A stretch of DNA of 64,000 nucleotides, from assembly GCF_003075095.1 (NCBI RefSeq), contig NZ_QCZF01000005.1:62001-126000 (forward strand), in the 5' to 3' direction. A program made the translations under genes and the position numbers. Positions 7,201 through 57,063 of this stretch are shown here, piece by piece (the first letter of the stretch is position 1; each line of letters begins with the position of its first letter). Origin of the DNA: Blastococcus litoris. Its GTDB lineage: Bacteria > Actinomycetota > Actinomycetes > Mycobacteriales > Geodermatophilaceae. The notes beneath the pieces were generated by a model that saw nothing but the letters and a program-made list of their open reading frames with translations, was not told the DNA's origin and ran no database searches.

Positions 7201-7632
7201 TCACCGCCAGGGGTCGGTGATCTCGCGCAGGTCGGCGAGGACGTCCCGTAGCAGCGCCATGCGCTCGCGCCCGAGGTGGGCGGTCCACTCGGCCTCCACC
7301 TCGGCGACCACACGGCGGGAGACCTCGACGCTGCGGGCCCCCCGCTCGGCGATCCGGACCAGGCGCGCCCGCCCGTCCGCCGGGTCGGCGACGCGTTCCA
7401 CGTACCCGGCCCGTTCCAGCTGGTCCACCAGGAAGCCGGCGCTCTGCTTGGTGATGCCGGCCTGCGCGGCGAGGTCGGTGAGCCGGCTGCCCTCGGGCGC
7501 GATCCGCTGGAAGACCTGCGCCTGGGCGGGGGAGACGTCGTCGAAGCCGGCCTCGGCCAGCGCGGCGAAGACGCGGCCCTCCATCGCCCGGTACGGCAGG
7601 AACAGCAGAAGGCCGACGTTCAGCGGCTCCAT
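7201..7632 (-). CDS. MarR-family regulator, module copy 1
   Basis: Winged-helix MarR repressor of 143 aa. The DNA-recognition region (about residues 48-75, ITKQSAGFLVDQLERAGYV) is followed by the wing DPADGRARLVRI. ATG at 7632 matches the start MEPLNVGLLLFLPYRAM shared with two paralogues at 45563 and 56632; identity to the 45.5-kb copy is about 84% by eye. It is divergent from a mycothiol-dependent isomerase-like gene, with a 38-bp palindrome between them, so it probably represses both. The ligand is unknown. Confidence 0.9.
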   Translation of the reverse strand: MEPLNVGLLLFLPYRAMEGRVFAALAEAGFDDVSPAQAQVFQRIAPEGSRLTDLAAQAGITKQSAGFLVDQLERAGYVERVADPADGRARLVRIAERGARSVEVSRRVVAEVEAEWTAHLGRERMALLRDVLADLREITDPWR

Positions 7633-7655
7633 CACGTTTGACGATGGTAGGCAAC

Positions 7656-7693
7656 GGTAAGAGAATCTGACGAGTCCGTCAGACTCTCTTACC
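7656..7693. promoter_or_regulatory. Palindromic operator, module copy 1
   Basis: Near-perfect 38-bp dyad between the divergent MarR and mycothiol-enzyme starts. Half-site GGTAAGAGAATCTGACG is matched on the other side with only one mismatch outside the central few bases. The same half-site (GTAAGAGAnTCTGAC) recurs at 45506-45541 and 56575-56610 in the same position. This is strong evidence for a MarR-type operator that also overlaps the promoters. Confidence 0.85.
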
Positions 7694-7708
7694 ACCTCGG
7701 GAGCACCC

Positions 7709-8359
7709 GTGGACCGAGACGAGAAGTGGGCAGTCGTCGCCGCCGGGCGCCGCGAGCTCGCCGACCTGCTGGACGGCGCGGCCGAGGCCGACCGGGACCG
7801 GCCGTCGCTCTGCCGTGAGTGGCGGGTGCGCGACGTCGCCGCGCACGTCGCCCTGACTCCGCAGTCGCCCGGGATCGTGCGCCTCCTCGGCATGGGGATC
7901 CGCGTCCGGGGCGACTTCGACGCGCTCAACCGGGAGCTCGCGGTGCGCCACGCCGATCGGCCGGGCGCCGACCTCGTCGCGGAGCTGCGGGCGCTGGCCT
8001 GGAGCCGGAGCAAGCCGGCGATCACGACCCTCGACAACCTGCTCTTCGACACCCTCGTCCACGTCCAGGACGTCGCCGTCCCGCTCGGCCGGACCGTCGT
8101 CATGCCACCCGAGGCCGGGCGAGAGGGTGCCGAGCGCGTGTGGCGGATGGGCTGGCCGTTCTGGGCACGACGCCGGTTGCGAGGCCTGCGGCTGTCCGCG
8201 ACGGACGTGGACTGGGCGGTGGGGGAGGGCGCCGAGGTCCGCGGGCCGGTTCGGGCGCTGCTGCTCCTGCTCACCGGCCGGAAGGAAGCCGCGCTCCCGG
8301 AGCTGACCGGCCCGGGGGCCGCCCGGCTGACCGGGGCGGGGACCGGACCCGGGCGGTGA
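7709..8359 (+). CDS. Mycothiol-dependent maleylpyruvate isomerase-family protein, copy 1
   Basis: 216-aa DinB-like four-helix protein of the maleylpyruvate isomerase/mycothiol-dependent family (TIGR03083 type). Visible marks are the EKWxVVAAGRREL start, WRVRDVAAHVALTPQSPG with a metal-ligand His, and FDTLVHVQDVAVPLG with a second His, then an AWWWP-like WRMGWPFWARRRL segment. Family members use mycothiol as cofactor or thiol acceptor; the substrate here is unknown. The GTG at 7709 lies 16 nt after the operator dyad. Paralogues are at 44819 and 55892. Confidence 0.8.
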   Translation: MDRDEKWAVVAAGRRELADLLDGAAEADRDRPSLCREWRVRDVAAHVALTPQSPGIVRLLGMGIRVRGDFDALNRELAVRHADRPGADLVAELRALAWSRSKPAITTLDNLLFDTLVHVQDVAVPLGRTVVMPPEAGREGAERVWRMGWPFWARRRLRGLRLSATDVDWAVGEGAEVRGPVRALLLLLTGRKEAALPELTGPGAARLTGAGTGPGR

Positions 8360-8413
8360 CGGGAGCGGTTGACGCCGCCGATATCCGCTTGCCGGCACGG
8401 GGGGACGGCTGCC

Positions 8414-8728
8414 AGCGTCGCCCCGTGCCGCCCACCAGCGCAGGCCCACCGACCGCCGCGTTCCTCGCGGCGGCGGAGGCCGCGGCCCGCGCCCGCCCGG
8501 AGGTGGACCCGCGCATCCACCACAACGGCGCCAAGCAGTTCCGCCCCCCCCGTCGTCGGCGCCCTCGATCTCGGCTACAGCACCCTCGAGCTGCCCGCCG
8601 AGGACCGGGCGGACCTCCGCCTCACGATCTACACCGCCGAACCGGGGTCGCCGTCCGCGGACGGGCTCGCGCTGCTGGCCAGTTGGGCGGCGACCGCACC
8701 GGACGCGACGGGAGCCGACCGGTCCTGA
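8414..8728 (+). pseudogene. Frameshifted C-terminal remnant of an MmyB-type regulator
   Basis: No intact gene here. From about 8414 one frame reads an FLAAAEAAARARPEVDPRIHHNGAKQFR-like stretch. After a run of eight C (8544-8551) the next frame reads PVVGALDLGYSTLELPAE and then AEPGSPSADGLALLASWA up to the stop at 8728. The latter matches the end of the MmyB-type ligand-binding domain found in XRE/HTH_31 actinobacterial regulators. The HTH and most of the ligand domain are missing. The homopolymer could be a sequencing slip, but the missing N-terminus makes a remnant more likely. Confidence 0.6.
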
Positions 8729-8950
8729 GGCGGCGTCGCTCGCCCGCGGGGGTGGCGCGGCACGAGCGGCACGGCGACCGGCACGTCGCCGCCCACGCAG
8801 CGGACCGGCCCGCCGGCGTGGAGACGCTCCCGGACGGCGTCGCGGCAGGGTCTGCGGCACCCCGTGCGCGGAGCGCGCGGCCGCCGTGGTTGCGTGTCGG
8901 GGCGCCGGGCCGTCGGCGGCAGGGCGACGTCCGGAGGGTCGGTCAGGAAC

Positions 8951-9766: not shown

Positions 9767-9806
9767 CACCTGGAAGCCGGCGGGGCCGCGCCCGGTTGGC
9801 CCGGTC

Positions 9807-10774
9807 GTGAGGCTCTCGCTGCTCGACCGCTCCCGGACCCGCGCCGGCCACCCCGAGGCGGCCGCCCTGACGCACACCGTGGAGCGCGCGGTGGCAGCCG
9901 AGCGGCTCGGCTACTCCCGGTTCTGGGTGGCAGAGCACCACGCCGTGCCGGGGATCGCCTCGGGTGCACCCGCAGTGCTGCTCGCGGCCGTCGGTGCGCG
10001 GACGGCGCGGATCCGGCTCGGGTCGGGCGGGTGATGCTGCCCCACCACCAGCCGCTGGTCGTCGCGGAGCAGTTCCTGATGCTGGACGGGCTGTACCCGG
10101 GCCGGGTCGATCTCGGGTTCGGCCGGTCTCTCGGGTTCACCGCACCCGTGCGGCGTGCGCTGCGCCGCTCCGGCGACGAGCCCGACACCTTCGCCGACGA
10201 CATCGGCGAGCTCCGCGGCTACCTCGAGCGCACCGCGCCGGTCACGGCCCGTCCGGCCGCCGCGGCGCCACTCCCGCTCTTCGTGCTCGCCACCGGTCGG
10301 GGCGTCGACGTCGCCGCCCGGCTCGGCCTGCCCGTGGTGCTGGGCGGACCCGTGCTCGCGCAGCCCGACCTCGGCGAGCTGCTGGCCGCCTACCGCCGCG
10401 GCTTCCGCCCGCACGCGGGCAGCAGGCCCCACGTCACCGTCTCGCTCGACGTGCTGGTCGCCGACACCGACGCCGAGGCGCGGGAGCTGGCGCTGCCGGA
10501 GGTGTGGGCGATGGTCCGCTCGCGGCGCACCGGTGTCTTCGACGCGCTGGAGCCGGTGGCCGACATCCGCGGCCGGCGCTGGGACGCCCAGGACGCCGAC
10601 CGGGTGGAGCGGGGCCTCGACGCGGTCACCGCCGGCAGCCCGGCCACCGTCCGCCGCCGGCTCGAGGAGCTGGCCGGGCGCACGGGCGCCGACGAGCTGC
10701 TCGCGAGCGGCGCCACCTACGACCGCGCCGCCCTGGCGGCGTCCGACGGCGAGCTCGCGGCGCTCCTCAGCTGA
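9807..10774 (+). pseudogene. LLM-class flavin monooxygenase, broken by a frameshift
   Basis: Luciferase-like flavin-dependent oxidoreductase split in two frames. The GTG at 9807 gives about 75 codons (LSLLDRSRTRAGHPEAA, then YSRFWVAEHHAVPGIASG), ending in a TGA at about 10032. A frame starting at 10031 continues without loss (VMLPHHQPLVVAEQF to the stop at 10774). The junction would read GSGGVMLPHH with one extra base, so a single-nucleotide deletion near 10026-10031 explains it. The rest is intact, so either a recent mutation or a sequence error is likely. The MsnO8-like subgroup is probable. Confidence 0.75.
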
Positions 10775-44818: not shown

Positions 44819-45490
44819 TCAGCCCGGCCGGCCGGCTCGTCGGCGTCGGCTCCGGTGCGCGGGATCGGCCAGCTGCTCGAGGGCCGGGCCGCTCAGGTGC
44901 GGCACGGCGGCCTCCGTGCGGCCGGTGAGCAGGAGCAGCAGCGCCTGGACCGGCCCCCGGATCTCGACCCCGTCGCCGGCGGTCCAGTCGACGTCGGTCG
45001 CGGCCAGCCGGATGCCGCGCAGCCGGCGCCGGGCCCAGAACGGCCAGCCCATCCGCCAGACGCGCTCGGCACCGGCGCGCGCCGCGTCGAGCGGCATGCT
45101 CGTGGCCAGGCCGAGCGGCACGGCCACGTCCTGGACGTGCACCAGGGTGTCGAACAGGAGGTTGTCCAGCGTCGTGAGGGCGGGCTTGCGCCGGCTGTCG
45201 GCCAGCTCCCGCAGCTGGGCCAGCAGCTGGCCGGGCGGACGGTCGGCGTGCGCGACCGCCAGGTCGCGGTTCACGGCGTCGAAGCTCCCGCCGGCACGGA
45301 GCCCCAGCGCGACGACCCGGACCATCCCCGGGGACTGCGGGGTGAGGGCGACATGCGCGACGACGTCCTTGATCCGCCACCGGTCGCACAGCGAGGGTCG
45401 CTCCCACTCCTCGTCCGCGAGGTCGGCGAGCAGCTCGGCCAGGGCCCGGCGCTGACCGGCGATCACGCTCCACTTCTCCTCGTGGTCCAT
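44819..45490 (-). CDS. Mycothiol-dependent maleylpyruvate isomerase-family protein, copy 2
   Basis: 223-aa paralogue of the genes at 7709 and 55892. EEKWSVIAGQRRALAELL, WRIKDVVAHVALTPQSPG and FDTLVHVQDVAVPLG are shared almost word for word. ATG at 45490, chosen by alignment with the other two. Divergent from MarR copy 2 across a 36-bp dyad. Substrate unknown. Confidence 0.82.
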   Translation of the reverse strand: MDHEEKWSVIAGQRRALAELLADLADEEWERPSLCDRWRIKDVVAHVALTPQSPGMVRVVALGLRAGGSFDAVNRDLAVAHADRPPGQLLAQLRELADSRRKPALTTLDNLLFDTLVHVQDVAVPLGLATSMPLDAARAGAERVWRMGWPFWARRRLRGIRLAATDVDWTAGDGVEIRGPVQALLLLLTGRTEAAVPHLSGPALEQLADPAHRSRRRRAGRPG

Positions 45491-45505
45491 GCCCGCCCCC
45501 CTGCC

Positions 45506-45541
45506 GTAAGAGACTCCGACCAGATGGTCAGAGTCTCTTAC
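45506..45541. promoter_or_regulatory. Palindromic operator, module copy 2
   Basis: 36-bp dyad, half-site GTAAGAGACTCnGACCA, with only two mismatches between arms. Same place and almost the same sequence as the element in module copy 3, and clearly related to that of copy 1. Confidence 0.85.
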
Positions 45542-45562
45542 CATCACCTAGCATCGTCAAGC

Positions 45563-45994
45563 ATGGAGCCGCTGAACGTCGGACTGCTGCTGTTCCTGCC
45601 CTACCGGGCGATGGAGGCGCGCGTCTTCGCCGGTCTGGCCGAGGCGGGCTTCCATGACGTCACCCCTGCCCAGGCGCGGGTCTTCCAGCGGATCTCACCC
45701 CAGGGCAGCCGGCTCACGGAGCTCGCCGCGCAGGCCGGGGTCACCAAGCAGACCGCCGGGTTCCTGGTGGACCAGCTCGAGCGTGCCGGGTACGTCGAAC
45801 GCGTCCCCGACCCGGCGGACGGGCGCGCGCGCCTGGTCAGGGTCGCGGAGCGGGGTGCGCGGAGCGTGGAGGCGTCCCGCGCGATCGTCGCGCAGGTGGA
45901 GGCGGAGTGGACGGCCCACCTCGGTGAGCACCGGATGGTCGAGCTCCGGGAGATCCTCACGGATCTGCGCGAGATCACCGATCCGTGGCGGTGA
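45563..45994 (+). CDS. MarR-family regulator, module copy 2
   Basis: 143-aa MarR paralogue. Differs from copy 3 (56632) in only about 5 of 143 residues by eye. Winged-helix region and start MEPLNVGLLLFLPYRAMEA identical in class to the other copies. Expected to bind the 36-bp dyad just upstream and to repress both itself and the divergent enzyme gene. Confidence 0.9.
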   Translation: MEPLNVGLLLFLPYRAMEARVFAGLAEAGFHDVTPAQARVFQRISPQGSRLTELAAQAGVTKQTAGFLVDQLERAGYVERVPDPADGRARLVRVAERGARSVEASRAIVAQVEAEWTAHLGEHRMVELREILTDLREITDPWR

Positions 45995-46050
45995 CCAGCT
46001 GCCACGCGGCCCCCGCCCGCGGGCGGACGGAACCCCCCGGGGTGCCGACG

Positions 46051-46626
46051 TCAGTGCACGAGCGACCGGACCAGGGCTCTGCCGCCGGCGATGGCGGCGC
46101 CTGCCGCCGCCACCCATGGGCCGGCCACGACGAAGGGGTCCAGGGGCTGGTGCACCAGATCGGTGCGCTTGCGTCCGATCCGCGACGAGATCCCGTGATG
46201 GGTGAACTCGGCCTTGATCCCGGTCTCGGTGATCGGATTGTCCGGGTGCGAGGTCGCGAAGGACTTCAGGTGCTCCTCGACGGCATCCACGCGGTCGGCC
46301 AGCATCAGCAGGAGCCAGTGCGCGGCACGGCCCTCGCTGTACCGGGCGTAGGAGAACCTCCGGATCACTCCGGACAGGCCTTTCGGCGGCTGCGCCGTGC
46401 CGAAGACCGGCGTGAGGAACTTGTGCTCGATCGAGCGTTCCCGCGGCCACTTCTCGGGCTGGCGGTCGGGGAACTCCCAGCGCGCGCCCGTCAGGTCCTT
46501 CTGGAACTGGAGTTTCGGCACCGAAGGCCGGTCGGACGGGTCGCTGTCCACTCCCCAGCCGGGTATGCGCGCCCGCAGCTGGTCCGGGGACTCGGCGATC
46601 GGCGGCTTGTGCGGTGTGTAGGTCAT
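46051..46626 (-). CDS. Hypothetical protein of the alcohol-dehydrogenase island
   Basis: 191-aa protein with no recognised domain. It has a basic, polar middle (KLQFQKDLTGARWEFPDRQPEKW) and a C-terminal hydrophobic stretch (PFVVAGPWVAAAGAAIAGGRALV) that may anchor it to the membrane. It lies 10 nt downstream of the Zn-dehydrogenase at 46637 and is likely co-transcribed with it. Confidence 0.65.
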   Translation of the reverse strand: MTYTPHKPPIAESPDQLRARIPGWGVDSDPSDRPSVPKLQFQKDLTGARWEFPDRQPEKWPRERSIEHKFLTPVFGTAQPPKGLSGVIRRFSYARYSEGRAAHWLLLMLADRVDAVEEHLKSFATSHPDNPITETGIKAEFTHHGISSRIGRKRTDLVHQPLDPFVVAGPWVAAAGAAIAGGRALVRSLVH

Positions 46627-46636: not shown

Positions 46637-47785
46637 TCAGGCAGCGCTCGGGACCACGAGCGGCTTGATGCAGTCGTCGAGCTTGGCCGAGAAGATGTGG
46701 TAGCCCTCCGCGATGTCGTCGAGCGGGATCCGGTGGGTGACCAGCTCGCTGGGCTTGATGTAGCCGTTGCGCACGTGCTCGAACAGGCGGGGCCACTGCC
46801 GCTTCACCGGGCACTGGTTCATCTGCAGGGTGAGCCCCTTGTTCATGGCGTCGCCGAACTTCACGGCGCTGAACAGGGGACCGTAGGCGCCCACCACGGA
46901 GATCGTGGCGCCCTTGCGGACGGAGTCGATCGCCCAGTTGAGCGCGACCGGCGACCCGCCCTGCAGCTTGAGCTTCGAAGTCGTCACGTGCTGCAGGAAA
47001 TTGCCGTCCGCCTCGGCCCCGACGGCGTCGATCGCGACGTCCGCGCCGAGGAAGTCGGTCTGCTTCTTCATCTCGAGCACGATGTCGCCGTACTCGGTGA
47101 AGTTGAAGGTCTCGGCGTGGGCCCACGTCCGGGCCTTCTCCAGGCGGTAGTCGAGGTGGTCGACCACGATCACGCGGCCGGCCCCCATGAGCCAGGCGGA
47201 CCGGGCCGCCACCAGGCCGACCGGGCCGGCGCCGAACACGACGACCACGTCACCCTCGACGATGTCGCCGAGCTGCGCACCGAAGTAACCGGTCGGGACG
47301 GCGTCGGTGAGCAGGACGGCGTCCTCGTCGGACATCCAGTCGGGGATCGTGGCCGGTCCGACGTCGGCGAACGGGACGCGGACGAACTGCGACTGCCCGC
47401 CGTCGTACCCGCCCGTGGTGTGCGAGTAGCCGTAGATGCCTCCCACGGCGGTGGCGTTGGGGTTCACGTTGTGGCAGTTGGAGTACAGGCCACGGGCGCA
47501 GTACCAGCACGAGCCGCAGAAGATGTTGAACGGGACCATGACCCGGTCACCGACCTTCAGGTTCTGCACCGACGACCCGACCTCGTCGACGACGCCGATG
47601 AACTCGTGGCCGAACGTGTGGCCGATCCGGGTGTCCGGCATCAGCCCGTGGTAGAGGTGCAGGTCGGAGCCGCAGATCGCCGCCAGCGTCACCCGCACGA
47701 TCGCGTCGTTGGGGTGCTCGATCGCCGGTCGTTCCTTCTCCTCGACCCGCACCTTGTAGGGCCCTCGATAGGTCATCGCACGCAT
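46637..47785 (-). CDS. Zn-dependent alcohol dehydrogenase (FdhA-like)
   Basis: 382-aa medium-chain dehydrogenase. Catalytic Zn: AICGSDLHLYHG and GHTFGHEFIG; structural Zn cysteines in CGSCWYCARGLYSNC; Rossmann VFGAGPVGLVAARS; VDHLDYRLEKA suggests NAD. Resembles the glutathione-independent formaldehyde dehydrogenase branch. ATG at 47785. A 24-nt motif about 90 nt upstream (47874-47897) is shared with the dehydrogenase at 51725. Confidence 0.88.
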   Translation of the reverse strand: MRAMTYRGPYKVRVEEKERPAIEHPNDAIVRVTLAAICGSDLHLYHGLMPDTRIGHTFGHEFIGVVDEVGSSVQNLKVGDRVMVPFNIFCGSCWYCARGLYSNCHNVNPNATAVGGIYGYSHTTGGYDGGQSQFVRVPFADVGPATIPDWMSDEDAVLLTDAVPTGYFGAQLGDIVEGDVVVVFGAGPVGLVAARSAWLMGAGRVIVVDHLDYRLEKARTWAHAETFNFTEYGDIVLEMKKQTDFLGADVAIDAVGAEADGNFLQHVTTSKLKLQGGSPVALNWAIDSVRKGATISVVGAYGPLFSAVKFGDAMNKGLTLQMNQCPVKRQWPRLFEHVRNGYIKPSELVTHRIPLDDIAEGYHIFSAKLDDCIKPLVVPSAA

Positions 47786-47873
47786 TGCCTCGGTCTCCCC
47801 CTGGCGCCGTCCGGCCCCTGTTGATCGGTGGCCCGAGCCTCGGTCAGCCCCCGGCGGCAGGCCACCCGAAGTA

Positions 47874-47897
47874 GCGGATATCGGCAGTTCTGCCCAT
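47874..47897 (-). promoter_or_regulatory. Shared alcohol-dehydrogenase promoter motif, copy A
   Basis: On the minus strand: ATGGGCA, four variable bases, T-N-CCGATA, then TCCGC. The same arrangement occurs at 51607-51630 before the dehydrogenase at 51725. Distance to the start codon is 89 nt here and 94 nt there. Operator or promoter function is inferred. Confidence 0.5.
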
Positions 47898-47913
47898 ACG
47901 GGCCGCGGCCGGT

Positions 47914-48933
47914 TTACCGGCGCGCCGACCGCGGGACCGCGGGGACGTAGAGCCCCTCCCGCTCGGCCCGCACCGCCGCGAGCGTCCTCGTCGGCGCGTC
48001 GAGCTTCACGAGCAGGTGCTCGACGTGTGCGGCGACGGTCCGTGGTGCCACGACCAGCGTCCGGGCGATCTCCTGGTTCGAGCACCCGTCGACCACGAGC
48101 CCGAGCACCTCCAGCTCGCGGGGGGTGAGCCCGTGCAGGTCCGGCGCCGGCGACACGACGACCACGCCGCGCAGGACCGCCGGCACGTCGTCGGGCGCGG
48201 CGAGGGCGGTGACCCGCGCGTGGCCGTCGGGGGCGTGGGAGCCGCCCAGGGGCCACAGGAAGGACGAGAACACCTGCCCGTCGGTGATCCGCCCGCACGC
48301 CGCGGTCAGGACCGGCGAGCCGACCGCGAGCAACGGCCCGGCGTCGAGGCCGGGCAACGGCTCGGTCCGTCCGTCCCTGCGAAGAACCGTCCCGGCCGTC
48401 GCCCCGCGGACCAGCCGCGTGACGCTCAGGACGGAGCGCATCGGGTCGATGCCGTGGGCGAGCACCGGCGCGAGCCGCCCGAGTCGGCGGCGCGCGGCCG
48501 GGGCCGGTGGCTGCCGACTTTCGGACAGCACCGTCAGGAAGCCGACGTGACGGCCTCCGTGAGCGAAGAGCGCGACGGACAGGCACTCATGGATGCCGGC
48601 CGGGATCAGGCACTCGGCCCACGTCGGGAGCTCCTCGGCCGGGTAGGGCAGGTCCGACAGGCTCACGGGCGGGCGATCCCGATCGACACCGGCGGTCTCG
48701 ATGTCGTGCGCCGCCTGTGGCCCGCTGAAGATGTCGACGACGCGGTCGTCCAGGTCGGCACTGGCGAGCGAGCTGAAGCTGCTGCGGAGGGGGTCGGCGA
48801 GGGCGATCCACGCGGCGTCGAACGGGACGAGCGGGCGGAGGACCTCGAGCAGGGCCTGCGCGCGCTCAGACGTGGTGCCGGCCGAGGAAGCGGTCTCGGC
48901 CAGCAGCAGTTCACCGACATCGTGCGAGCGCAT
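47914..48933 (-). CDS. GAF-LuxR regulator
   Basis: 339-aa regulator with an N-terminal GAF-like sensor half (LLLAETASSAGTT, LEVLRPLVPFDAAWIALADP) and a C-terminal LuxR HTH (LTPRELEVLGLVVDGCSNQEIARTLVV then RTVAAHVEHLLVKLDAPTR). Homologous over its length to the protein at 50155 and to the truncated one at 51180. Located between two dehydrogenase units, so it may control them. ATG at 48933. Confidence 0.83.
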   Translation of the reverse strand: MRSHDVGELLLAETASSAGTTSERAQALLEVLRPLVPFDAAWIALADPLRSSFSSLASADLDDRVVDIFSGPQAAHDIETAGVDRDRPPVSLSDLPYPAEELPTWAECLIPAGIHECLSVALFAHGGRHVGFLTVLSESRQPPAPAARRRLGRLAPVLAHGIDPMRSVLSVTRLVRGATAGTVLRRDGRTEPLPGLDAGPLLAVGSPVLTAACGRITDGQVFSSFLWPLGGSHAPDGHARVTALAAPDDVPAVLRGVVVVSPAPDLHGLTPRELEVLGLVVDGCSNQEIARTLVVAPRTVAAHVEHLLVKLDAPTRTLAAVRAEREGLYVPAVPRSARR

Positions 48934-49139
48934 GAGGGCCCTTCCTGGAGCTCGGTGAGAGCGGACGCATGGAGGCCGTGACCGAGCCGGCTGCTCGACG
49001 GGGGCGGGCGCACACGGACCAGGTACTGATACCGCAGGACGCGGCGGTCCACCGGGTGTGCCGTGACGTAGAACCACATGCCCGTGAGTCCTGGCCTCAC
49101 GCGGGGGGCCGGGCCCGGTCCGCGGCGGTAGCGTGTCCT

Positions 49140-50081
49140 GTGGACCTGCGCCAGCTCCGGTACTTCCTCACCGTGGCCGAGGAACGGCGCTTCGTCTCTG
49201 CCGCGCGCCGGTTGCACGTCGCCGCTCCGTCGCTCTCGCAGCAGATCCGTGCGCTGGAGCGGGATCTGCGCGTCGCGCTCTTCGACCGCACACCGCGGGG
49301 AGCGGAGTTGACGCCTGCCGGGCGCGTCCTGATGGAGCGGGCACGGGTGATCCTGGCCGAGGTCGACCGGGCCCGGGAGGACGTGCGATCGGCGGCGCCG
49401 GACCGTAGGGAGCAGGTGTCCCTCCGCGTCTGCACGATGGCGGAGCGGGTCCTCGACGGCCCGCTGCGGCTGGTCAGCGTCGCGCTCCCGGGCACGGAGG
49501 TCGTCGTCGCCTCCAGCCCGGGGGACGACGCCGTGGAGGCCACCCGCCAGGGACGGGCCGATGCGGCGGTCGTCTGGTACCGACCCCAGGAGCACCGCGA
49601 CCTCGACGGTGTCGTCCTCGGCTCGGTGCTGTTCGGCATCGTCCTGCCGCAGGGGCATCCCCTCGCGGGACTGGCGGAGATCCCGGTCGCCGGTCTCGAC
49701 CACGAATCCACGGTGATGTTCCCGTTGCCTCCCTTCGCCGGCATCTGGCAGCGCACCGTCGACCACCTGCTGCCCGGGGGACCGCAGCCGGGACAGGTCG
49801 TCGTGGAGCCGGACCTCATCAACTGCCCCGAGGCGATGTTGCGGGCGGTCGCTGCGGGGTCCGGGGTGGCGCCGGGGATCCTCGGCGTCGCCGAGCACAT
49901 GGACGTGGCCGGGATCGTCGTGCTGCCGCTCGATCCGCCGCTGTTGCTCGACCTCGAGGTCGTCTGGCGCACTCCGCCGCGCCCCGCCGTGCGCGGCCTC
50001 GTCGACTTCCTGGCCGCCGCGGTGGACGACCCGGAGGTCCTCGTCGCGCCGCCTCGTCGTCCCCCCGGCCGGAGGCCGTGA
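49140..50081 (+). CDS. LysR-family regulator
   Basis: 313-aa LTTR. HTH about 1-60 (LRQLRYFLTVAEERRFVSAARRLHVAAPSLSQQIRALE), effector domain with VVASSPGDDAVEATRQGRADAAVV. GTG at 49140. A TACTGATACCGCAG stretch at about 49025 is reminiscent of the alcohol-dehydrogenase motif and lies 98-115 nt upstream, but the match is weak. Target not known. Confidence 0.88.
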   Translation: MDLRQLRYFLTVAEERRFVSAARRLHVAAPSLSQQIRALERDLRVALFDRTPRGAELTPAGRVLMERARVILAEVDRAREDVRSAAPDRREQVSLRVCTMAERVLDGPLRLVSVALPGTEVVVASSPGDDAVEATRQGRADAAVVWYRPQEHRDLDGVVLGSVLFGIVLPQGHPLAGLAEIPVAGLDHESTVMFPLPPFAGIWQRTVDHLLPGGPQPGQVVVEPDLINCPEAMLRAVAAGSGVAPGILGVAEHMDVAGIVVLPLDPPLLLDLEVVWRTPPRPAVRGLVDFLAAAVDDPEVLVAPPRRPPGRRP

Positions 50082-50154
50082 GGCGTCAGGACGACCTCCT
50101 CGCAGCCGTCCCCGCTCGTCTCGACCGTGCCGTAGCCGTACAGGTGGTGGTGGC

Positions 50155-51183
50155 TCAGGTCGCCGCCGTCACGCCCGGTGGGATGCGCAACCCGCCGCGC
50201 AAGGCACGCATCGTGGCCGACGTGAGGTCGCTCGAACGCAGGGCCCCCAGGCTCCGGCCGAGGCTGTCGGCCACCACCGTCGTGCCCACGTGGAGTGCCT
50301 GCGCCAGAGCGGGGATGTGGGTGACGCCCTCGATCAGGAGGCCCAGGACCCGGAGATCGAGGACGTCGAGGCCGTGCAGGTCGCCCGGTGGGCCCAGGAG
50401 CACCGCGGCAGAGAGGTGGTCCAGGTCGGGGCGGGCGAAGTCGAGCGCGGTGACCCGGACCAGCTGCGCGCCGTCCGCGCCCGCTGTGGGGGCGAGGAAC
50501 GAGGTGTACGCGCCGCTGTCGGCCAACTCGTCCGCGGCGACCGCGAGGATCGGGGAGCCTGGCGCCAGCAGGCGGTCGTCGGGGAGACCTGGCAGCGGCA
50601 GGACGTCGCCTCCGCGGGTCAGGACGATGCCGGCGTCGGCCTTCCGGATGATCCGGGCGGTCTCGGCGATGTCCCGGCTGCGGTCGAGCTCGTCGGCCAC
50701 CACCGTGGTGATGGCCGCGATGACCCTCCGGTCGGCCGGGCTCGGCCGCGAGGGATCGGCGGAGAGGAGAGCGAGGGAGCCGATGTGCCGACCGTCCGCC
50801 GTGAACAGGGGGGCCGCCACGCCCTGGCGGAAACCGGCCGGGAGCAGGTGGTCGGCCCACGCGCGGACCTCGGACAGCGGACCCGGGATCTCGCTGGCGA
50901 GCATGGGCAGCCGCCGCCGGTTGAGCCCCAGTCGTTCCAGCTCCTCGTCGGCCTCCGGACGGGCGAAGTAGTCGTAGAGCGGCGCGGCCGCGCCCGTGCT
51001 GGCCAGCGGGAGGTGCCGGTGCCGCTCGGGGTCGCGTGCGGCGATCCAGCCGGCGTCGAACGCCATGATCCGCCTGAGGTGGTGCAGAACCTCTGCAGCC
51101 CGTTCCTGCACGGTCGCGGAGGAGGCGGCGATCCCCGCGAACTCCCGCCGCAGCTCCGGGAGCGGCGGTTCTCTCCCCCTCAT
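50155..51183 (-). CDS. GAF-LuxR-type regulator with divergent HTH
   Basis: 342-aa homologue of the regulator at 47914. The GAF half is conserved (AEVLHHLRRIMAFDAGWIAARDPERH). The C-terminal HTH is diverged: LHGLDVLDLRVLGLLIEGVTHIPALAQALHV replaces the usual LTPRE...NQEIA, and the recognition helix has lost typical residues. It may bind a different site or none. ATG at 51183 overlaps the 105-aa mini-regulator stop as ATGA. Confidence 0.75.
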   Translation of the reverse strand: MRGREPPLPELRREFAGIAASSATVQERAAEVLHHLRRIMAFDAGWIAARDPERHRHLPLASTGAAAPLYDYFARPEADEELERLGLNRRRLPMLASEIPGPLSEVRAWADHLLPAGFRQGVAAPLFTADGRHIGSLALLSADPSRPSPADRRVIAAITTVVADELDRSRDIAETARIIRKADAGIVLTRGGDVLPLPGLPDDRLLAPGSPILAVAADELADSGAYTSFLAPTAGADGAQLVRVTALDFARPDLDHLSAAVLLGPPGDLHGLDVLDLRVLGLLIEGVTHIPALAQALHVGTTVVADSLGRSLGALRSSDLTSATMRALRGGLRIPPGVTAAT

Positions 51184-51497
51184 GGCGGCGGTCCCTCCTC
51201 CGCGCGTGGCGGGACGTACGAGCCGGCGCGTTCGGCGCGGGCGGCGGCGTGGGTTCGCGTCGGCGCACGCGGCGTCGCCGGGATGGGCGCGACGTGCGCC
51301 GCCACCGTCCGCCGGGAGACGAGGGGCGTGCGCGCGATCTGCCTGTTCGCGCAACCGGCCACCAGGGCCGGCCGGGCGCTGTCGAACGGGACCACCCGGC
51401 GCAGCACGGCGAGTGCCTCCTCGCCACGGCGTGGCAGCGGGTCGGAGGGACCGGCGATCGCGGTCATCTCGAGGGCCGCCGGCCCGTAGTCCCGCAT
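51180..51497 (-). CDS. 105-aa internally deleted GAF-LuxR relative
   Basis: Small protein that joins the first part of the GAF half (RRGEEALAVLRRVVPFDSA) directly to the LuxR HTH (CANRQIARTPLVSRRTVAAHVAPIP) and YVPP end. About 230 residues present in the 339-aa homologue are absent, without loss of frame. The HTH has substitutions (LVS-RRT). It is coupled by ATGA to the next regulator. It could be a degraded gene or a stand-alone DNA-binding form. Confidence 0.55.
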   Translation of the reverse strand: MRDYGPAALEMTAIAGPSDPLPRRGEEALAVLRRVVPFDSARPALVAGCANRQIARTPLVSRRTVAAHVAPIPATPRAPTRTHAAARAERAGSYVPPRAEEGPPP

Positions 51498-51606
51498 GGC
51501 CGTCTCCCGATGCCCGGCTGATCCCTGCCTGCAGATCCCGAGGATGAGGGCGCATGCCCGCGTCCGGCATCGGCAGAGCGACCGATCCTCCCCATCCCGA
51601 TCCGGA

Positions 51607-51630
51607 ATGGGCATGTCTACCGATACCGGA
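51607..51630 (+). promoter_or_regulatory. Shared alcohol-dehydrogenase promoter motif, copy B
   Basis: ATGGGCATGTCTACCGATACC, within a TCCGG...CCGGA flanked 30-bp segment (51601-51630). Same element as copy A at 47874-47897. It lies 94 nt before the dehydrogenase start at 51725. Confidence 0.5.
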
Positions 51631-51724
51631 GCGTCTCCGCCCGGCGTCCCATGGAGGAGCCTCCGGCGCCGCCACGGTCGACGTCCAGGGCGTCCCTGAT
51701 GAACGAGACGAACGAGGAGTCAGC

Positions 51725-52879
51725 ATGAAGGCAGTGGTCTACGAGGGCCCGCGTCAGGTCAGCGTCAAGGACGTACCGGACGCGCGGATCGAGCGGCCGA
51801 CCGACGTCCTGGTGCGGATCACCTCGGCGAACATCTGCGGCTCGGACCTGCACATGTACGAGGGCCGGACCGATTTCGAGACCGGGCGCTGGTTCGGGCA
51901 CGAGAACCTGGGCCAGGTGGTCGAGGTCGGCGACGGGGTCGACAAGGTCCGGGTGGGCGACTGGGTGGTCCTGCCGTTCAACATCGCCTGTGGTCACTGC
52001 AAGAACTGCGAACGCCAGCTCACGAACTACTGCCTGACCGCGCAGCCGAAGCAGGAGTGGGCGGGCGCGGCGTACGGCTTCGCCGACATGGGCCCGTACG
52101 GCGGGGGACAGGCGGAACTGCTGCGCGTGCCCTGGGGCGACTTCAACTGCCTGCGGCTGGGCGAGGACGCCGAGCAGCGCCAGACCGACTACGTGATGCT
52201 CGCCGACATCTTCCCGACCGGCTACCACGCCACCGAGATGGCCGGCGTCAAGCCCGGCGACCAGACCGTCATCTACGGCGCCGGCCCGGTCGGCCTGATG
52301 GCGGCGCTCTCGGCCACCATCCGCGGGGCCAGCAAGGTGATGGTCGTCGACCGGCAGCCCGACCGGCTGAAGCTGGCCGAGTCGATCGGGGCCATCGCCA
52401 TCGACGACTCGAAGGTCGACCCGGTGCAGGCGGTCCTCGAGCAGACCATGGGCCTCGGCGCCGACAACGGGTGCGAGTGCGTCGGGTACCAGGCGCACGA
52501 GCCCGACGGCCAGGAGAAGGCCAACCTGACGATGAACCGGCTGGTCGCCTCCGTGCGCTTCACCGGGACGATCGGCGTCGTCGGGGTGTTCATCCCCCAG
52601 GACCCCGGGGCCAGCGACGAGCTGGCCAAGCAGGGCAAGCTCGCCTTCGACTTCGGCATGTTCTGGTTCAAGGGCCAGAAGATGGGCAGCGGGCAGGCGC
52701 CGGTCAAGAAGTACAACCGGCAGCTGCGCGACCTCATCGCCGGGGGCAAGGCCGAGCCGTCGTTCATCGTCAGCCACGAGCTGCCGCTGGACCAGGCGCC
52801 GGATGCCTACGAGCACTTCGACAACCGTGACGACGGCTGGACCAAGGTCGTCCTCCACCCGGCGATGGCGGGGGCCTGA
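51725..52879 (+). CDS. Zn-dependent alcohol dehydrogenase (formaldehyde dehydrogenase type)
   Basis: 384-aa enzyme resembling glutathione-independent formaldehyde dehydrogenase. NICGSDLHMYEG and WFGHENLGQ (catalytic Zn), CGHCKNCERQLTNYC (structural Zn), YGAGPVGLMAALSA (NAD). The insertion SVRFTGTIGVVGVFIPQDPG is typical. First gene of a coupled run with a DJ-1-type protein, an unknown protein and another dehydrogenase. Confidence 0.9.
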   Translation: MKAVVYEGPRQVSVKDVPDARIERPTDVLVRITSANICGSDLHMYEGRTDFETGRWFGHENLGQVVEVGDGVDKVRVGDWVVLPFNIACGHCKNCERQLTNYCLTAQPKQEWAGAAYGFADMGPYGGGQAELLRVPWGDFNCLRLGEDAEQRQTDYVMLADIFPTGYHATEMAGVKPGDQTVIYGAGPVGLMAALSATIRGASKVMVVDRQPDRLKLAESIGAIAIDDSKVDPVQAVLEQTMGLGADNGCECVGYQAHEPDGQEKANLTMNRLVASVRFTGTIGVVGVFIPQDPGASDELAKQGKLAFDFGMFWFKGQKMGSGQAPVKKYNRQLRDLIAGGKAEPSFIVSHELPLDQAPDAYEHFDNRDDGWTKVVLHPAMAGA

Positions 52880-52880
52880 C

Positions 52881-53456
52881 GTGGCGGGCGAGCTCGACGG
52901 ACGCCGGGTCGCCATCCTCGCGGCCGACGGCGTGGAGCGGGTCGAGCTGGAGCGGCCCCGGCAGGCGCTGGAGGACGCCGGTGCCCGCACCGACGTCGTC
53001 TCGATCGCGAGCGGCGAGATCCTGGCGCGCAACCAGGACCTCGAGGACGCCGGCACCTTCGGCGTCGACCGGCTCGTCGGGGCGGTCTCCATCGACGACT
53101 ACGACGCGCTGCTGCTGCCGGGCGGGACGGTGAACCCGGACAAGCTGAGGATGGAGCCGGCCGCCGTCGCCTTCGTCCGCGACTTCGTCCGGTCCGGCAA
53201 GCCGGTCGCCTCGATCTGCCACGGTCCGTGGAACTTCGTCGAGGCCGACGTCGCGCGCGGTCGCCGGCTGACCTCGTGGCCGAGCGTCCGCACCGACCTG
53301 CGCAACGCCGGCGCGGAGGTGGTCGACGAGGAGGTCGTCACAGACGGCAACATCACGACGAGCCGGTCGCCGGACGACCTGCCGGCCTTCTGCGCACGCA
53401 TCGTGCAGGAGTTCGCCCGCGCCCTGCAGCCCACCGGGGCGGGGAGTCGGGCATGA
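52881..53456 (+). CDS. DJ-1/PfpI-family protein
   Basis: 191-aa class I amidotransferase-like protein. Nucleophile elbow SICHGPWNFVEA (Cys), and GRRVAILAADGVERVEL start. PfpI members act as glyoxalase III or deglycase, which fits a reactive-aldehyde role next to formaldehyde-type dehydrogenases. GTG at 52881. ATGA overlap with the next gene. Confidence 0.85.
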   Translation: MAGELDGRRVAILAADGVERVELERPRQALEDAGARTDVVSIASGEILARNQDLEDAGTFGVDRLVGAVSIDDYDALLLPGGTVNPDKLRMEPAAVAFVRDFVRSGKPVASICHGPWNFVEADVARGRRLTSWPSVRTDLRNAGAEVVDEEVVTDGNITTSRSPDDLPAFCARIVQEFARALQPTGAGSRA

Positions 53457-53941
53457 CGTCCTCGATCGGGAACGTGGCGTCCGTAGCCGCCAGGGCCGGG
53501 GGGTCCGTCGTCCGCCAGGTGCGGGCGGTCATCGATCCGTCGGCCGCCCACCCGGCCGGCGCCGGCCAGCCGGCGTCCGGGTGGCTCGCGGTGACGGTGT
53601 TCCGCGAGCCGTCCGACATCGACACCGCGGTGCTGCCCGCCCCCCTGGCCGAGTTCGGCGACCGGATCGAGGTCCGGGTCCGCCGGGCCCCGGGCGAGAA
53701 GGGCACCGAGCTGGCCGCCCGGCTGCGCGACCAGCCGGCACCGGGCAACGCGCTCAGCCGGCTCAGCGGCAGCGATCCGCACGGCCGGCTGCGGTCCGCG
53801 CTGCGCAAGGCCAAGCAGCTGATCGAGGTGGGCGAGGTGCTGGCGGTGGACCCGGCACCGCACGGCAAGCGGACGGCGACTCCCGGCGGCGCCCTGCTGG
53901 AGGCCTGGACCAAGGTGGCACCGAAGGCGGGTGTGCGGTGA
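53453..53941 (+). CDS. Hypothetical protein coupled to dehydrogenases
   Basis: 162-aa protein without recognised motif, 4-nt overlaps on both sides (ATGA with DJ-1, GTGA with the following dehydrogenase). Contains VVRQVRAVIDPS and a polar helical core with RVRRAPGEKGTELAARL; one segment RLRSALRKAKQLIEVGEVLAVDPAP resembles SRPBCC-adjacent acyl-carrier-like sequences, but not enough to name. Its position between enzymes suggests a role in the same process. Confidence 0.65.
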   Translation: MTSSIGNVASVAARAGGSVVRQVRAVIDPSAAHPAGAGQPASGWLAVTVFREPSDIDTAVLPAPLAEFGDRIEVRVRRAPGEKGTELAARLRDQPAPGNALSRLSGSDPHGRLRSALRKAKQLIEVGEVLAVDPAPHGKRTATPGGALLEAWTKVAPKAGVR

Positions 53942-55113
53942 AGGCGGTCACCTGGCGCGGGGTGAACGAGATCGGTGTCGAGGACGTCGCCGAGCCCACG
54001 ATCCTCAACGACCACGACATCATCCTCGAGGTGGGGCTGAGTGCCACCTGCGGCTCGGACCTGCACCTCATGGGCGGCTACATCCCGGCCATGCGCGCCG
54101 GTGACGTGCTCGGGCACGAGTTCATGGGCACGGTCGCCGAGGTCGGCCGCGGCGTGACCAAGCACCACGTGGGTGACCGCGTGGTGGTGGTCTCGTTCAC
54201 CAGCTGCGGGCAGTGCTGGTACTGCAAGCAGGGGCTGTTCTCGCTGTGCGACAACGGCAACCCCAACCCCGGGATCACCGAGGCGCTCTGGGGGCAGGCC
54301 ATCGGCGGCTGCTACGGGTACTCCCACGCGCTCGGCGGCTACGCGGGCAGCCACGCCTCCTACATCCGGGTGCCGTACGCCGACCAGGGTGCCTTCGCGA
54401 TCCCGGACGGCGTCTCCGACGAGCGAGCCCTGTTCGCCTCCGACGCCGCACCCACCGGGTGGACCGGGGCCGACCAGGCCGGGGTGCGGGCCGGGGACGT
54501 GGTCGCGGTGTGGGGCGCCGGAGGCGTCGGCCAGATGGCCGCACGCAAGGCGATGCTCATGGGCGCCGAGCGGGTCGTGGTCATCGACCGGTTCGACAAC
54601 CGGCTCGAGCAGGTCCGCACGCACGTCGGGGCGGACACGCTGGACTACGAGGAGGTCGACGTCCCCGCCGAGCTGCGCGAGATGACCGGTGGCAGAGGGC
54701 CGGACGTCTGCATCGAGGCCGTCGGCATGGAGGCGCACGGCACGGGTCCGCAGTACCTCTACGACCAGGTCAAGCAGCAGATGCGGTTGCAGACCGACCG
54801 GCCCACGGCGGTGCGCGAGGCGATCTACGCCTGCCGCAAGGGCGGGTCCGTCTTCACCCTCGGCGTCTTCGCCGGTCTGGTGGACAAGTTCCCCCTAGGC
54901 GCCGTGATGAACAAGGCGCTGACCCTGCGCGGCGCCCAGCAGCACGGGCACCGCTACATCCCGGAGATCCTCGACCTCATGAGCCGGGACGAGGTGAGGA
55001 CCGAGCACCTCGCGACCCACGTGATGTCGCTCGACGACGGGCCGAAGGGCTACCGGATGTTCAAGGACAAGGAGGACGGGTGCGTCCGTGCTGTGTTCCG
55101 TCCTGGTGCGTGA
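53938..55113 (+). CDS. Zn-dependent alcohol dehydrogenase
   Basis: 391-aa medium-chain dehydrogenase: ATCGSDLHLMGG, LGHEFMGTV (catalytic Zn), CGQCWYCKQGLFSLC (structural Zn), WGAGGVGQMAARKA (Rossmann). Overlaps the preceding gene as GTGA. Close in layout to the copy at 46637 (FdhA-like, YGYSH and GGY...FVRVP/IRVPYAD segments) but has its own C-terminus. Confidence 0.88.
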   Translation: MKAVTWRGVNEIGVEDVAEPTILNDHDIILEVGLSATCGSDLHLMGGYIPAMRAGDVLGHEFMGTVAEVGRGVTKHHVGDRVVVVSFTSCGQCWYCKQGLFSLCDNGNPNPGITEALWGQAIGGCYGYSHALGGYAGSHASYIRVPYADQGAFAIPDGVSDERALFASDAAPTGWTGADQAGVRAGDVVAVWGAGGVGQMAARKAMLMGAERVVVIDRFDNRLEQVRTHVGADTLDYEEVDVPAELREMTGGRGPDVCIEAVGMEAHGTGPQYLYDQVKQQMRLQTDRPTAVREAIYACRKGGSVFTLGVFAGLVDKFPLGAVMNKALTLRGAQQHGHRYIPEILDLMSRDEVRTEHLATHVMSLDDGPKGYRMFKDKEDGCVRAVFRPGA

Positions 55114-55177
55114 GGCGCCGACGGGTGGATCGCCCCGGGTCGGGGCGTAGAGCCGGGGCGGGACCCCCGCCGGCCCG

Positions 55178-55867
55178 GTGCGGGGCTCGCAGGTGAGCGT
55201 CGCACCGAGCCGGACGGCGGTGGACACGGGCCCGCGGCCCACGATCCTGTCGTGGCGCCGACTGCTGATCTGTCTCGCTGGCGGTCTCGTCGCGGCCGGA
55301 CTGGCCGTGCTGGCCGGCGTCCCCGAGATCGCGGTGCTCGTCGGCTGGGCCGTCGCCGCCGGCGCCCTGCTGGTCTGGGTGTGGCGGATCAGCTGGCCCC
55401 GCGACCCGGACGGGACGAAGCGGCTGGCCGAGGAGGAGGGGCAGACCCGCGTCACGGACACGGCGGTGCTGGGAGCGGCGGTGGCCAGCCTCGCAGCCGT
55501 CGCGGAGGCCCTCGTCCGGTCCAGCTCCGGGGGCGCCGTCGGGGTTGTCACCGTGGTGCTCGGCGTCCTGGTGGTGATCGTGTCGTGGGCGCTGGTCAAC
55601 ACGGTCTTCGCGCTCAAGTTCGCGCGCCACTTCTACTCCGGCGGCGACGGCGGCATCGACTTCGGCCAGCGGGATCCGCCTGCCTACAGCGACTTCGCCT
55701 ACCTCGCGTTCACGGTCGGGATGAGCTTCGCGGTGCCGGACACCCAGATCGCGGACACGTCGATCCGCAAGGTCGCCCTCGGGCACGCGCTGCTGTCCTA
55801 CCTCTTCGGCACCGTGGTGATCGCCGTGGCGGTGAACCTGGTGACCAACCTCGGACAGCAGGGATAG
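55178..55867 (+). CDS. DUF1345-family membrane protein
   Basis: 229-aa membrane protein with about five transmembrane segments (LLICLAGGLVAAGLAVLAG, GVVTVVLGVLVVIVSWALVNTVF, LLSYLFGTVVIAVAVNLV). FALKFARHFYSG and FAYLAFTVGMSFAVPDTQI are characteristic of DUF1345. Function unknown. GTG at 55178; a start at 55193 is nearly as good. Confidence 0.8.
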   Translation: MRGSQVSVAPSRTAVDTGPRPTILSWRRLLICLAGGLVAAGLAVLAGVPEIAVLVGWAVAAGALLVWVWRISWPRDPDGTKRLAEEEGQTRVTDTAVLGAAVASLAAVAEALVRSSSGGAVGVVTVVLGVLVVIVSWALVNTVFALKFARHFYSGGDGGIDFGQRDPPAYSDFAYLAFTVGMSFAVPDTQIADTSIRKVALGHALLSYLFGTVVIAVAVNLVTNLGQQG

Positions 55868-55891
55868 CCGCTGGGGACGGTGTTCACCCGC

Positions 55892-56560
55892 TCAGGCGAG
55901 CCGACCGGCCCGGCGTCGTCGCCGGCGTGCCGGATCGAGCAGCTGCTCGAGAGCAGGGCCGGTCAGGTGCGGTGCCGCGGCCTCCGTGCGCCCGGTGAGC
56001 AGGAGGAGCAGAGCCTGGACCGGCCCCCGGATCTCGAGCCCGTCGCCGGCGGTCCAGTCGACGTCGGTGGCGACCAGTCGCGTGCCGCGCAGCCGACGAC
56101 GGGCCCAGAACGGCCAGCCCATCCGCCAGACCCGCTCCGCTCCCGCTCGGGCCGCGTCGACCGGCATGTTCGCAGCCAGACCGAGCGGCACCGCGACGTC
56201 CTGGACGTGCACGAGGGTGTCGAACAGGAGGTTGTCCACCGTCGTGATGGCGGGCCTGCGCCGGCTGGAGGCCATCTCCCGCAACTCGGCCACGAGGTGG
56301 GCGGGAGGACGGTCGGCGTGCGCGACCGCCAGCTCGCGGTTGACGGCGTCGAAGCTGCCGCCGGCCCGGAGCGCCAGGGCGAGGATCCGGACCAGCCCGG
56401 GGGACTGCGGGGTGAGGGCGACGTGCGCGACGACGTCCTTGACCCGCCACCGGTCGCACAGCGACTGCCGTTCCCAGTCGTCGTCCTCCAGGTCGGCGAC
56501 CAGCTCGGCCAGGGTCCGCCGTTGACCGGCGATCACCCGCCACTTCTCCTCGAGGTCCAT
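55892..56560 (-). CDS. Mycothiol-dependent maleylpyruvate isomerase-family protein, copy 3
   Basis: 222-aa paralogue with EEKWRVIAGQRRTLAELV, WRVKDVVAHVALTPQSPG and FDTLVHVQDVAVPLG. ATG at 56560 by alignment, although an ATG at 56572 adds four residues. Divergent from MarR copy 3 over the 36-bp dyad. Confidence 0.82.
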   Translation of the reverse strand: MDLEEKWRVIAGQRRTLAELVADLEDDDWERQSLCDRWRVKDVVAHVALTPQSPGLVRILALALRAGGSFDAVNRELAVAHADRPPAHLVAELREMASSRRRPAITTVDNLLFDTLVHVQDVAVPLGLAANMPVDAARAGAERVWRMGWPFWARRRLRGTRLVATDVDWTAGDGLEIRGPVQALLLLLTGRTEAAAPHLTGPALEQLLDPARRRRRRAGRLA

Positions 56561-56574
56561 CGTCGTCCCCATTC

Positions 56575-56610
56575 GTAAGAGACTCTGACCAGATGGTCAG
56601 AGTGTCTTAC
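56575..56610. promoter_or_regulatory. Palindromic operator, module copy 3
   Basis: 36-bp dyad GTAAGAGACTCTGACCAG plus its inverse, two mismatches. Nearly identical to the copy-2 element and in the same position. Confidence 0.85.
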
Positions 56611-56631
56611 CATCGCCTAGCATCGTCAAGC

Positions 56632-57063
56632 ATGGAGCCGCTGAACGTCGGACTGCTGCTGTTCCTGCCCTACCGGGCCATGGAGGCGCGCGTCTTCACG
56701 GGTCTGGCCGAGGCCGGCTTCGACGACGTCACCCCTGCCCAGGCTCGGGTCTTCCAGCGGATCTCGCCCCACGGCAGCCGGCTCACGGACCTGGCCGCCC
56801 AGGCGGGGGTCACCAAGCAGACCGCCGGGTTCCTGGTGGACCAGCTCGAGCGTGCCGGGTACGTCGACCGCGTTCCCGACCCGGCGGACGGGCGCGCCCG
56901 CCTGGTCCGCGTCGCGGAGCGGGGTGCGCGCAGCGTGGAGGCGTCCCGCGCGATCGTCGCGCAGGTGGAGGCCGAGTGGACCGCGCACCTCGGTGAGCAC
57001 CGGATGGTCGAGCTCCGGGAGATCCTCACCGACCTGCGCGAGATCACCGATCCGTGGCGGTGA
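56632..57063 (+). CDS. MarR-family regulator, module copy 3
   Basis: 143-aa repressor, about 96% identical to copy 2 by eye and about 84% to copy 1. Residues differing from copy 2 lie mostly in the N-terminal half and outside the recognition helix, so all copies may bind each other's operators. Confidence 0.9.
   Translation: MEPLNVGLLLFLPYRAMEARVFTGLAEAGFDDVTPAQARVFQRISPHGSRLTDLAAQAGVTKQTAGFLVDQLERAGYVDRVPDPADGRARLVRVAERGARSVEASRAIVAQVEAEWTAHLGEHRMVELREILTDLREITDPWR

Follow-up and report, generated by a model that had tools for sequence, protein, structure and literature searches.

The 64-kb stretch of the Blastococcus litoris genome analysed here (called the window throughout; bases 62001-126000 of contig C5 in an assembly of 4.63 Mb and 87 contigs) carries three divergent pairs, each consisting of a MarR-family regulator gene and a gene for an MDMPI/DinB-type mycothiol enzyme, with a twin-box operator between the two genes of each pair. 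The triplicate pair is real and mostly ordinary: self-repressing MarR-enzyme pairs are a known kind of system, here present in three copies. Each pair probably works as an autonomous self-repressing cassette, with the three MarR proteins acting as one pooled repressor over three enzymes in a closed three-member regulon. This reading starts from direct observations, namely the gene layout, the twin boxes, their conservation with the cassette and their confinement to the cassettes in this genome, the copy number, and the absence of cysteine from the regulators.

To these observations the proposed mechanism adds predictions about repression, the binding of one dimer per box, cross-binding, ligand release and enzyme chemistry. 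A cysteine-free, ligand-type MarR dimer would bind each 15-bp palindromic box GTMAGA-N3-TCTGAC, and two dimers would sit on the same helix face in the narrow space that separates the divergent genes, where they would block transcription of both marR and the mycothiol enzyme gene. A small molecule, probably the enzyme substrate or its parent compound, would free the repressor. The three MarR proteins would bind each other's operators and so constitute a pooled repressor over three enzymes, and the three-member regulon would have been made by duplication of the cassette plus one more diverged copy.

The paired genes and their twin-box operators

The three pairs had been proposed by a first-pass annotation of the letters of the window, and reading frames and Pfam searches bore out their positions and common layout (Table 1). 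All six cassette reading frames are intact. The three regulators score above the Pfam gathering cut-offs of both MarR_2 and MarR, which places them in the MarR family, and the three enzymes exceed the MDMPI_N gathering score (36.4-45 bits vs 24.2) as well as the TIGR03083 cut-off. Alternative starts are a GTG three bases upstream of the ATG of marR copy 1 and a possible longer start at 56572 for enzyme copy 3. Five of 143 residues separate the MarR proteins of copies 2 and 3, the number that the annotation had estimated. The enzymes share 187/222 residues between copies 2 and 3, 141/216 between copies 1 and 2, and 144/216 between copies 1 and 3.

The dyads at 7657-7692 (copy 1), 45506-45541 (copy 2) and 56575-56610 (copy 3) have the common sequence that the first-pass annotation had described, but the element it took for a half-site, GTAAGAGAnTCTGAC (15 bp), is a palindrome by itself with a 6-3-6 arrangement (GTMAGA-N3-TCTGAC). 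Each dyad is thus composed of two complete boxes that face each other, with starts 21 bp apart (two helical turns), and their sequence suggests that two MarR dimers probably occupy a dyad, one on each 15-bp box. Between copy 1 and either of the other copies, 27 of the 30 box letters are unchanged, whereas the six-base spacer keeps only one.

A scan of the window with GTAAGAGANTCTGAC (up to three mismatches) produced nine matches on both strands at six places, all within the three dyads, against 1.24 expected; none of 100 shuffles reached nine. In the whole genome, GTAAGANNNTCNGAC with at most one mismatch was matched 17 times, six times exactly and 11 times with one mismatch. This genome-wide search, which the first-pass annotation had recommended, confined the exact boxes to the three modules, with no exact match elsewhere.

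The recognition helices are near-identical, as had been pointed out before: TKQTAGFLVDQLERAGYV is found twice and TKQSAGFLVDQLERAGYV once, with a single T/S change in copy 1. Because the helices are so similar, the box letters are largely unchanged and the genome holds no other exact match, each MarR would be expected to bind all three operators, and cross-regulation among the three copies is likely on these grounds. The AlphaFold2 model of the copy 2 MarR, a monomer model (predicted local distance difference test score, pLDDT, in Table 1), matched MexR, MepR, SlyA, HpaR and other transcriptional regulators in the PDB.

No cysteine is present in any of the three MarR proteins. In cysteine-redox MarR proteins of the OhrR/RosR type, a reactive cysteine senses oxidants; for the three MarR proteins of the window this kind of sensing is ruled out, and the lack of cysteine makes release by a bound ligand, rather than thiol oxidation, the likely input.

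The AlphaFold2 model of enzyme copy 2 (pLDDT 90.3) has 2nsg/2nsf as its best full-length structural match, and its predicted architecture is a DinB four-helix fold followed by a C-terminal domain, like that of 2nsf. The candidate metal ligands H46, D114 and H118 are invariant in 18 sequences, and C35 is likewise invariant in the cassette enzymes. In a weak match to YfiT (E 0.063), H46 corresponds to the second member of its HH pair, taken here as a metal-ligand position of YfiT and MDMPI; a PDB sequence search with the enzyme profile returned only this YfiT match and two unrelated weak ones. The host genome has mshC, and no Pfam match pointing to the gentisate pathway was found among 10 neighbouring proteins scanned.

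Table 1. Positions of the cassette genes, operator boxes and neighbouring features in the window
Feature	Position	Strand	Details
marR copy 1	7201..7632	-	143 aa from ATG; Pfam MarR_2 9.6e-11; 120/143 identical to copies 2 and 3 (each)
Operator box copy 1, marR side	7657..7671	+	GTAAGAGAATCTGAC, exact match
Operator box copy 1, enzyme side	7678..7692	-	GTAAGAGAGTCTGAC on minus strand
MDMPI/DinB-type enzyme gene copy 1	7709..8359	+	216 aa; MDMPI_N 1e-08; NCBIfam TIGR03083 89.1 bits (cut-off 50)
MDMPI/DinB-type enzyme gene copy 2	44819..45490	-	223 aa; MDMPI_N 2.2e-11; TIGR03083 97 bits
Operator box copy 2, enzyme side	45506..45520	+	GTAAGAGACTCCGAC
Operator box copy 2, marR side	45527..45541	-	GTAAGAGACTCTGAC
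TAGCAT, -10-like hexamer	45549..45554	+	8 bases before marR copy 2 start codon
marR copy 2	45563..45994	+	143 aa; MarR_2 7.4e-12; AlphaFold2 model pLDDT 89.9
MDMPI/DinB-type enzyme gene copy 3	55892..56560	-	222 aa; MDMPI_N 1.2e-10; TIGR03083 98.5 bits
Operator box copy 3, enzyme side	56575..56589	+	GTAAGAGACTCTGAC
Operator box copy 3, marR side	56596..56610	-	GTAAGACACTCTGAC
marR copy 3	56632..57063	+	143 aa; MarR_2 1.7e-11; 138/143 identical to copy 2
191-aa reading frame	46051-46626	-	just after copy 2 marR; no Pfam match at E 1e-4
Island between copies 2 and 3	46637-55867		three zinc alcohol dehydrogenases, GAF proteins, LysR regulator, DJ-1/PfpI protein, DUF1345 protein
Zinc alcohol dehydrogenases of the island	46637-47875, 51722-52879, 53938-55113
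LuxR-type GAF regulator	47914-48933
Second GAF protein	50155-51726
Luciferase-like monooxygenase frame (Bac_luciferase)	10031-10774		~2 kb from copy 1

Conservation and copy number among Actinomycetes

Relatives of the cassette were searched for with the copy 2 MarR as query, at E <= 1e-30 in the family and 1e-35 in the order and class, thresholds at which more diverged copies go uncounted. Of the 112 family genomes, 47 gave a match, as did 7 of the 16 in the genus (source genome included); for samples of genomes taken from the order and from the class, the figures are 71 of 397 and 37 of 394. Multiple matches at these cut-offs were confined to the source genome (three), G086 (two) and G338 (two), so that only the source genome showed three copies. 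A collection of named records yielded 16 loci, including some from Actinomycetospora, Pseudonocardia, Cellulomonas and Streptomyces. In two family genomes, G094 and G017, the cassette locus is identical to that of a named Modestobacter and a named Blastococcus record, which points to Geodermatophilaceae as the probable family. The pair thus forms an actinomycete cassette of two genes, single-copy in nearly every genome having it; a genome with three copies under one operator type is unusual, while the cassette itself is common in relatives. The part of the literature covered by our search held no description of a MarR/mycothiol-enzyme cassette, and the family is apparently undescribed so far.

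The two copies of G086 have different operators, a single box at L061 and a twin at L090. For the two MarR copies of G338, no strict box and no enzyme match were detected in the flanks examined. These copies (L127 and L128) are near-identical MarR relatives, each lying about 0.8 kb from a contig end, and are possibly a repeat that broke the assembly.

Upstream DNA was compared at 64 non-redundant loci including the three of the window, after removal of the duplicates L042, L045, L075 and L076. Automatic scoring assigned two boxes to 59 of the 64 loci. Inspection by eye showed that L032, scored as a twin in a 20-bp register, has one clear box and one degenerate, and that L093, missed by the script, has both boxes further upstream. 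The first-pass annotation had considered that the dyads might be absent from related genomes that have the genes; we looked for this and found that it is not so, since the final tally is twin boxes at 59/64 loci (three being the window's own) and one clear box at 5/64 (L032, L055, L059, L061 and L085). The register in the other 58 automatically scored loci is 21 bp in 29, 22 bp in 28 and 23 bp in one. Across the 59 loci scored, the box is nearly invariant at its outer GT and AC and at its inner G and C, and its three centre bases are variable. As judged from sequence, the conserved 6-3-6 boxes upstream of marR and next to a divergent gene are the short palindromic operator expected of a MarR-family regulator.

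Four of the single-box loci (L055, L059, L061 and L085) form a clade of the same family with a single palindromic box, e.g. GTCAGGTTTCCTGAC in L059, and provide a natural control for the twin layout. From the single-box loci, the unit seems to be one box.

The enzyme gene is divergent at 62 of the 64 loci. Of 29 loci from the class-wide search (L105 repeats L036), which stand outside the automatic box-scoring set, 24 have a divergent enzyme gene next to marR and L125 has one at a distance of 746 bp, also divergent; no enzyme match was found at L112, L113, L122 and L123.

A TANNNT hexamer, noticed on visual inspection, lies a few bases before the marR start at all 13 loci of the window's clade that were looked at, L098 and L099 having been read by eye, which suggests a leaderless marR promoter with the box just upstream. 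A separate TANNNT inside box 1 occurs at 42/59 loci and in none of the window's copies.

Origin of the three copies and competing explanations

An alignment of 1,170 bp between copies 2 and 3 (44827-45996 vs 55900-57065) shows 90% identity, and comparison of their flanks gave no further match except for the dyad matching itself in reverse. The position of copy 1 depends on the gene. In the MarR protein tree copy 1 groups with copies 2 and 3 (support 96/79) and the window sequences form one clade in 96% of bootstrap trees, whereas in the enzyme tree it groups with L041/L043 (97/74), which are orthologues of G107 and of a Modestobacter metagenome-assembled genome, and the window forms one clade in 0% of bootstrap trees. 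Codon trees of 15 chosen rows agree with the protein trees (93/93 and 81/94). Approximately unbiased tests of the conflict were borderline, with neither value below 0.05 (0.063 and 0.053).

A comparison of site patterns, prompted by the trees, counted sites at which copy 1 agrees with copies 2 and 3 vs with G094 and G107: 28 vs 55 in the enzyme gene, 5 vs 9 in the intergenic region and 31 vs 19 in marR, after sites matching neither group had been dropped (8, 1 and 6, respectively). The enzyme and marR patterns differ (Fisher p 0.0021). In the best segment, which extends from the operator end into marR, 29/40 informative sites favour copies 2 and 3 vs 35/107 elsewhere (permutation p 0.0054). 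By these alignments, copy 1 and copies 2 and 3 are not simple sisters, and the pattern is suggestive of gene conversion of the repressor over a tract running from the operator end into marR. MarR is also conserved beside a faster enzyme between species (87% vs 69% for G107), so faster enzyme divergence is not special to the source genome.

On this basis one can tentatively imagine, with the odds rather against it, that a one-copy cassette was turned into a pooled circuit of diverging enzymes from separate lineages under interchangeable repressors kept alike by marR gene conversion, in which the repressor dose rises with copy number and one threshold is common to all three.

Several results weigh against a closed regulon with a shared repressor. 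The shared operator and helix of copies 2 and 3 are in part due to their recent common descent. The 11 one-mismatch boxes in the genome, all outside the modules and none of them paired, compare with four for a reversed control pattern, which may leave room for further weak sites; three of them are single boxes of the form GTCAGA-N3-TC[CG]GAC that may be such sites, and GTCAGA-N3-TCTGAC, itself one mismatch away, is absent among the 11. At L039 the enzyme gene is on the same strand as marR, not divergent, and at L034 (Cellulomonas sp. Root930) marR and the boxes are there, with the enzyme reduced to a 55-residue match (4751-4915) on the opposite strand just upstream, where the gene is possibly broken or diverged. 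A consensus scan around copy 2 found no promoter and no sigma-70 site. With 15 TIGR03083 matches in the genome, membership of this family is a poor guide to the substrate. Covariation between regulator and operator also failed to find support once phylogeny was considered: among the 59 scored loci, GTTCGA-type half-sites occur at 8/8 loci with Ser at MarR residue 66 and at 3/47 with Gly66 (four with other residues left out), and the independent-pairs test gave a median p of 1 (81 of 93 rows, 12 without a box pattern having been dropped). Position 66 is therefore not claimed as a specificity residue.

It is unlikely, though worth serious weighing, that the three pairs are insulated switches, with boxes alike by descent and MarR proteins that no longer agree in ligand binding or operator preference; there would then be little crosstalk, each enzyme answering to different compounds. 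Such insulation would agree with the 23 of 143 residues at which the copy 1 MarR differs from the others, mostly outside the recognition helix, with a copy 1 enzyme that is about one third different, with box centres and spacers in copy 1 that are unlike those of copies 2 and 3, and with the visibly different operators of the two G086 copies, from which it follows that paralogues can part ways. The near-identity of the boxes and of the helices speaks against it, as does the 5' part of copy 1 marR, which looks homogenised with copies 2 and 3.

We also consider it improbable that the copies are selfish or passively redundant, that is, recent or horizontally gained duplicates of no special regulatory meaning that are to be lost or to diverge. 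The patchy distribution in the family and genus, the near absence of a shared neighbourhood in relatives and the arrangement of copies 2 and 3 as direct repeats 11 kb apart are in line with this explanation. To the right of copy 3, the window is collinear with G028 from 57272 (90-93%) and with G037 from 57555 (86%); on the other side, 11.6 kb of G028 matched no window gene, and the cassette of G028 itself is on another contig. The stretch thus looks accessory, and the start of collinearity near the cassette edge looks like its boundary. Against redundancy, all six frames are intact, 14 of 91 four-fold sites but only 5 residues have changed between marR copies 2 and 3, and the boxes are conserved where the spacer is not.

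Copies 2 and 3 do flank an alcohol-dehydrogenase island, as the first-pass annotation had noticed, but a functional link between the cassettes and the island is unsupported. The window scan found no box within three mismatches in or near the island genes. For neighbourhood comparisons, we took the window reading frames that were 120 aa or longer and passed a filter on third-position GC content (GC3), 88 in all, and searched with them nine regions from relatives, with at most 10 kb per side and two regions from G086. Eight of the nine share nothing with the window except the pair itself and have no dehydrogenase match; in the ninth, L075 from G086, a match at 35% to one of the island dehydrogenases lies about 2 kb past the cassette. 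Of the 15 other genus genomes, only 4 have relatives of the third island dehydrogenase at 72-74% identity; the closest are in G032, G033 and G034, which have no MarR match in the family search, and in G038, where the cassette is on a different contig. The link was rejected on the box scan and these comparisons, and with copy 1 lying about 37 kb from copy 2 it is highly improbable that the cassettes and the island make up one aldehyde or electrophile detoxification locus, despite the three zinc alcohol dehydrogenases and the DJ-1/PfpI protein between copies 2 and 3 and the L075 match.

In L075, positions 4126-4827, about 3 kb from the single-box cassette, match the luciferase-like frame 10031-10774 of the window (56%); this was the only shared neighbour gene of its kind seen, and its recurrence may be due to chance. 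Near the window ends, the same-strand stretches 3330-3880 and 62204-62739 are 71% identical and are perhaps paralogous genes.

Significance and comparison with known systems

The comparison of 64 loci defines a widespread actinobacterial MarR/mycothiol-enzyme cassette with a clear 15-bp operator in a 21-22-bp twin layout, so that the operator can be predicted from the sequence of dozens of genomes. With its three copies, the source genome offers a natural test of paralogous autorepressors that share one operator, and of gene conversion keeping regulators alike while enzymes diverge. If the three repressors are indeed pooled, a multi-enzyme regulon would have been reached without any promoter change.

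Among the closest known systems is AesR of Corynebacterium glutamicum, where two palindromes lie side by side and each is proposed to accommodate one dimer (PMC13413800). The cassette also has two adjacent boxes, whose occupancy and role in repression are predictions. In contrast, the AesR targets given in the available part of that report are a DsbA protein and a cytochrome c biogenesis protein rather than an MDMPI/DinB enzyme, its box sequence is different, it is released by Cu, Ni and Zn, and one locus is described (PMC13413800).

SCO3205 of Streptomyces coelicolor is likewise an actinobacterial MarR with two related pseudopalindromic operators between its own and a divergent gene, SCO3204; these operators were predicted by comparison of orthologues and confirmed by surface plasmon resonance (PMC3737563). 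Unlike the boxes of the cassette, they are described as two separate sites with the consensus TTnAAnnnTCAA, and the divergent gene resembles class III extradiol dioxygenases (PMC3737563). SAV4189 of Streptomyces avermitilis resembles the cassette regulators as an autorepressing MarR with several short 5-3-5 palindromes and antibiotics as ligands, but its partner is a co-transcribed efflux gene and it has further targets elsewhere in the genome (PMC6036246).

On the enzyme side, the mycothiol-dependent maleylpyruvate isomerase 2nsf/2nsg shares about 15% identity with the cassette enzyme. According to a review, the metal of the Mycobacterium tuberculosis mycothiol S-transferase 8f5v is bound by one Asp and two His residues, and its Cys36 is mycothiolated (PMC10950700). 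The DinB four-helix fold is common to this enzyme and to the cassette enzymes, in which the invariant residues include two His, one Asp and one Cys.

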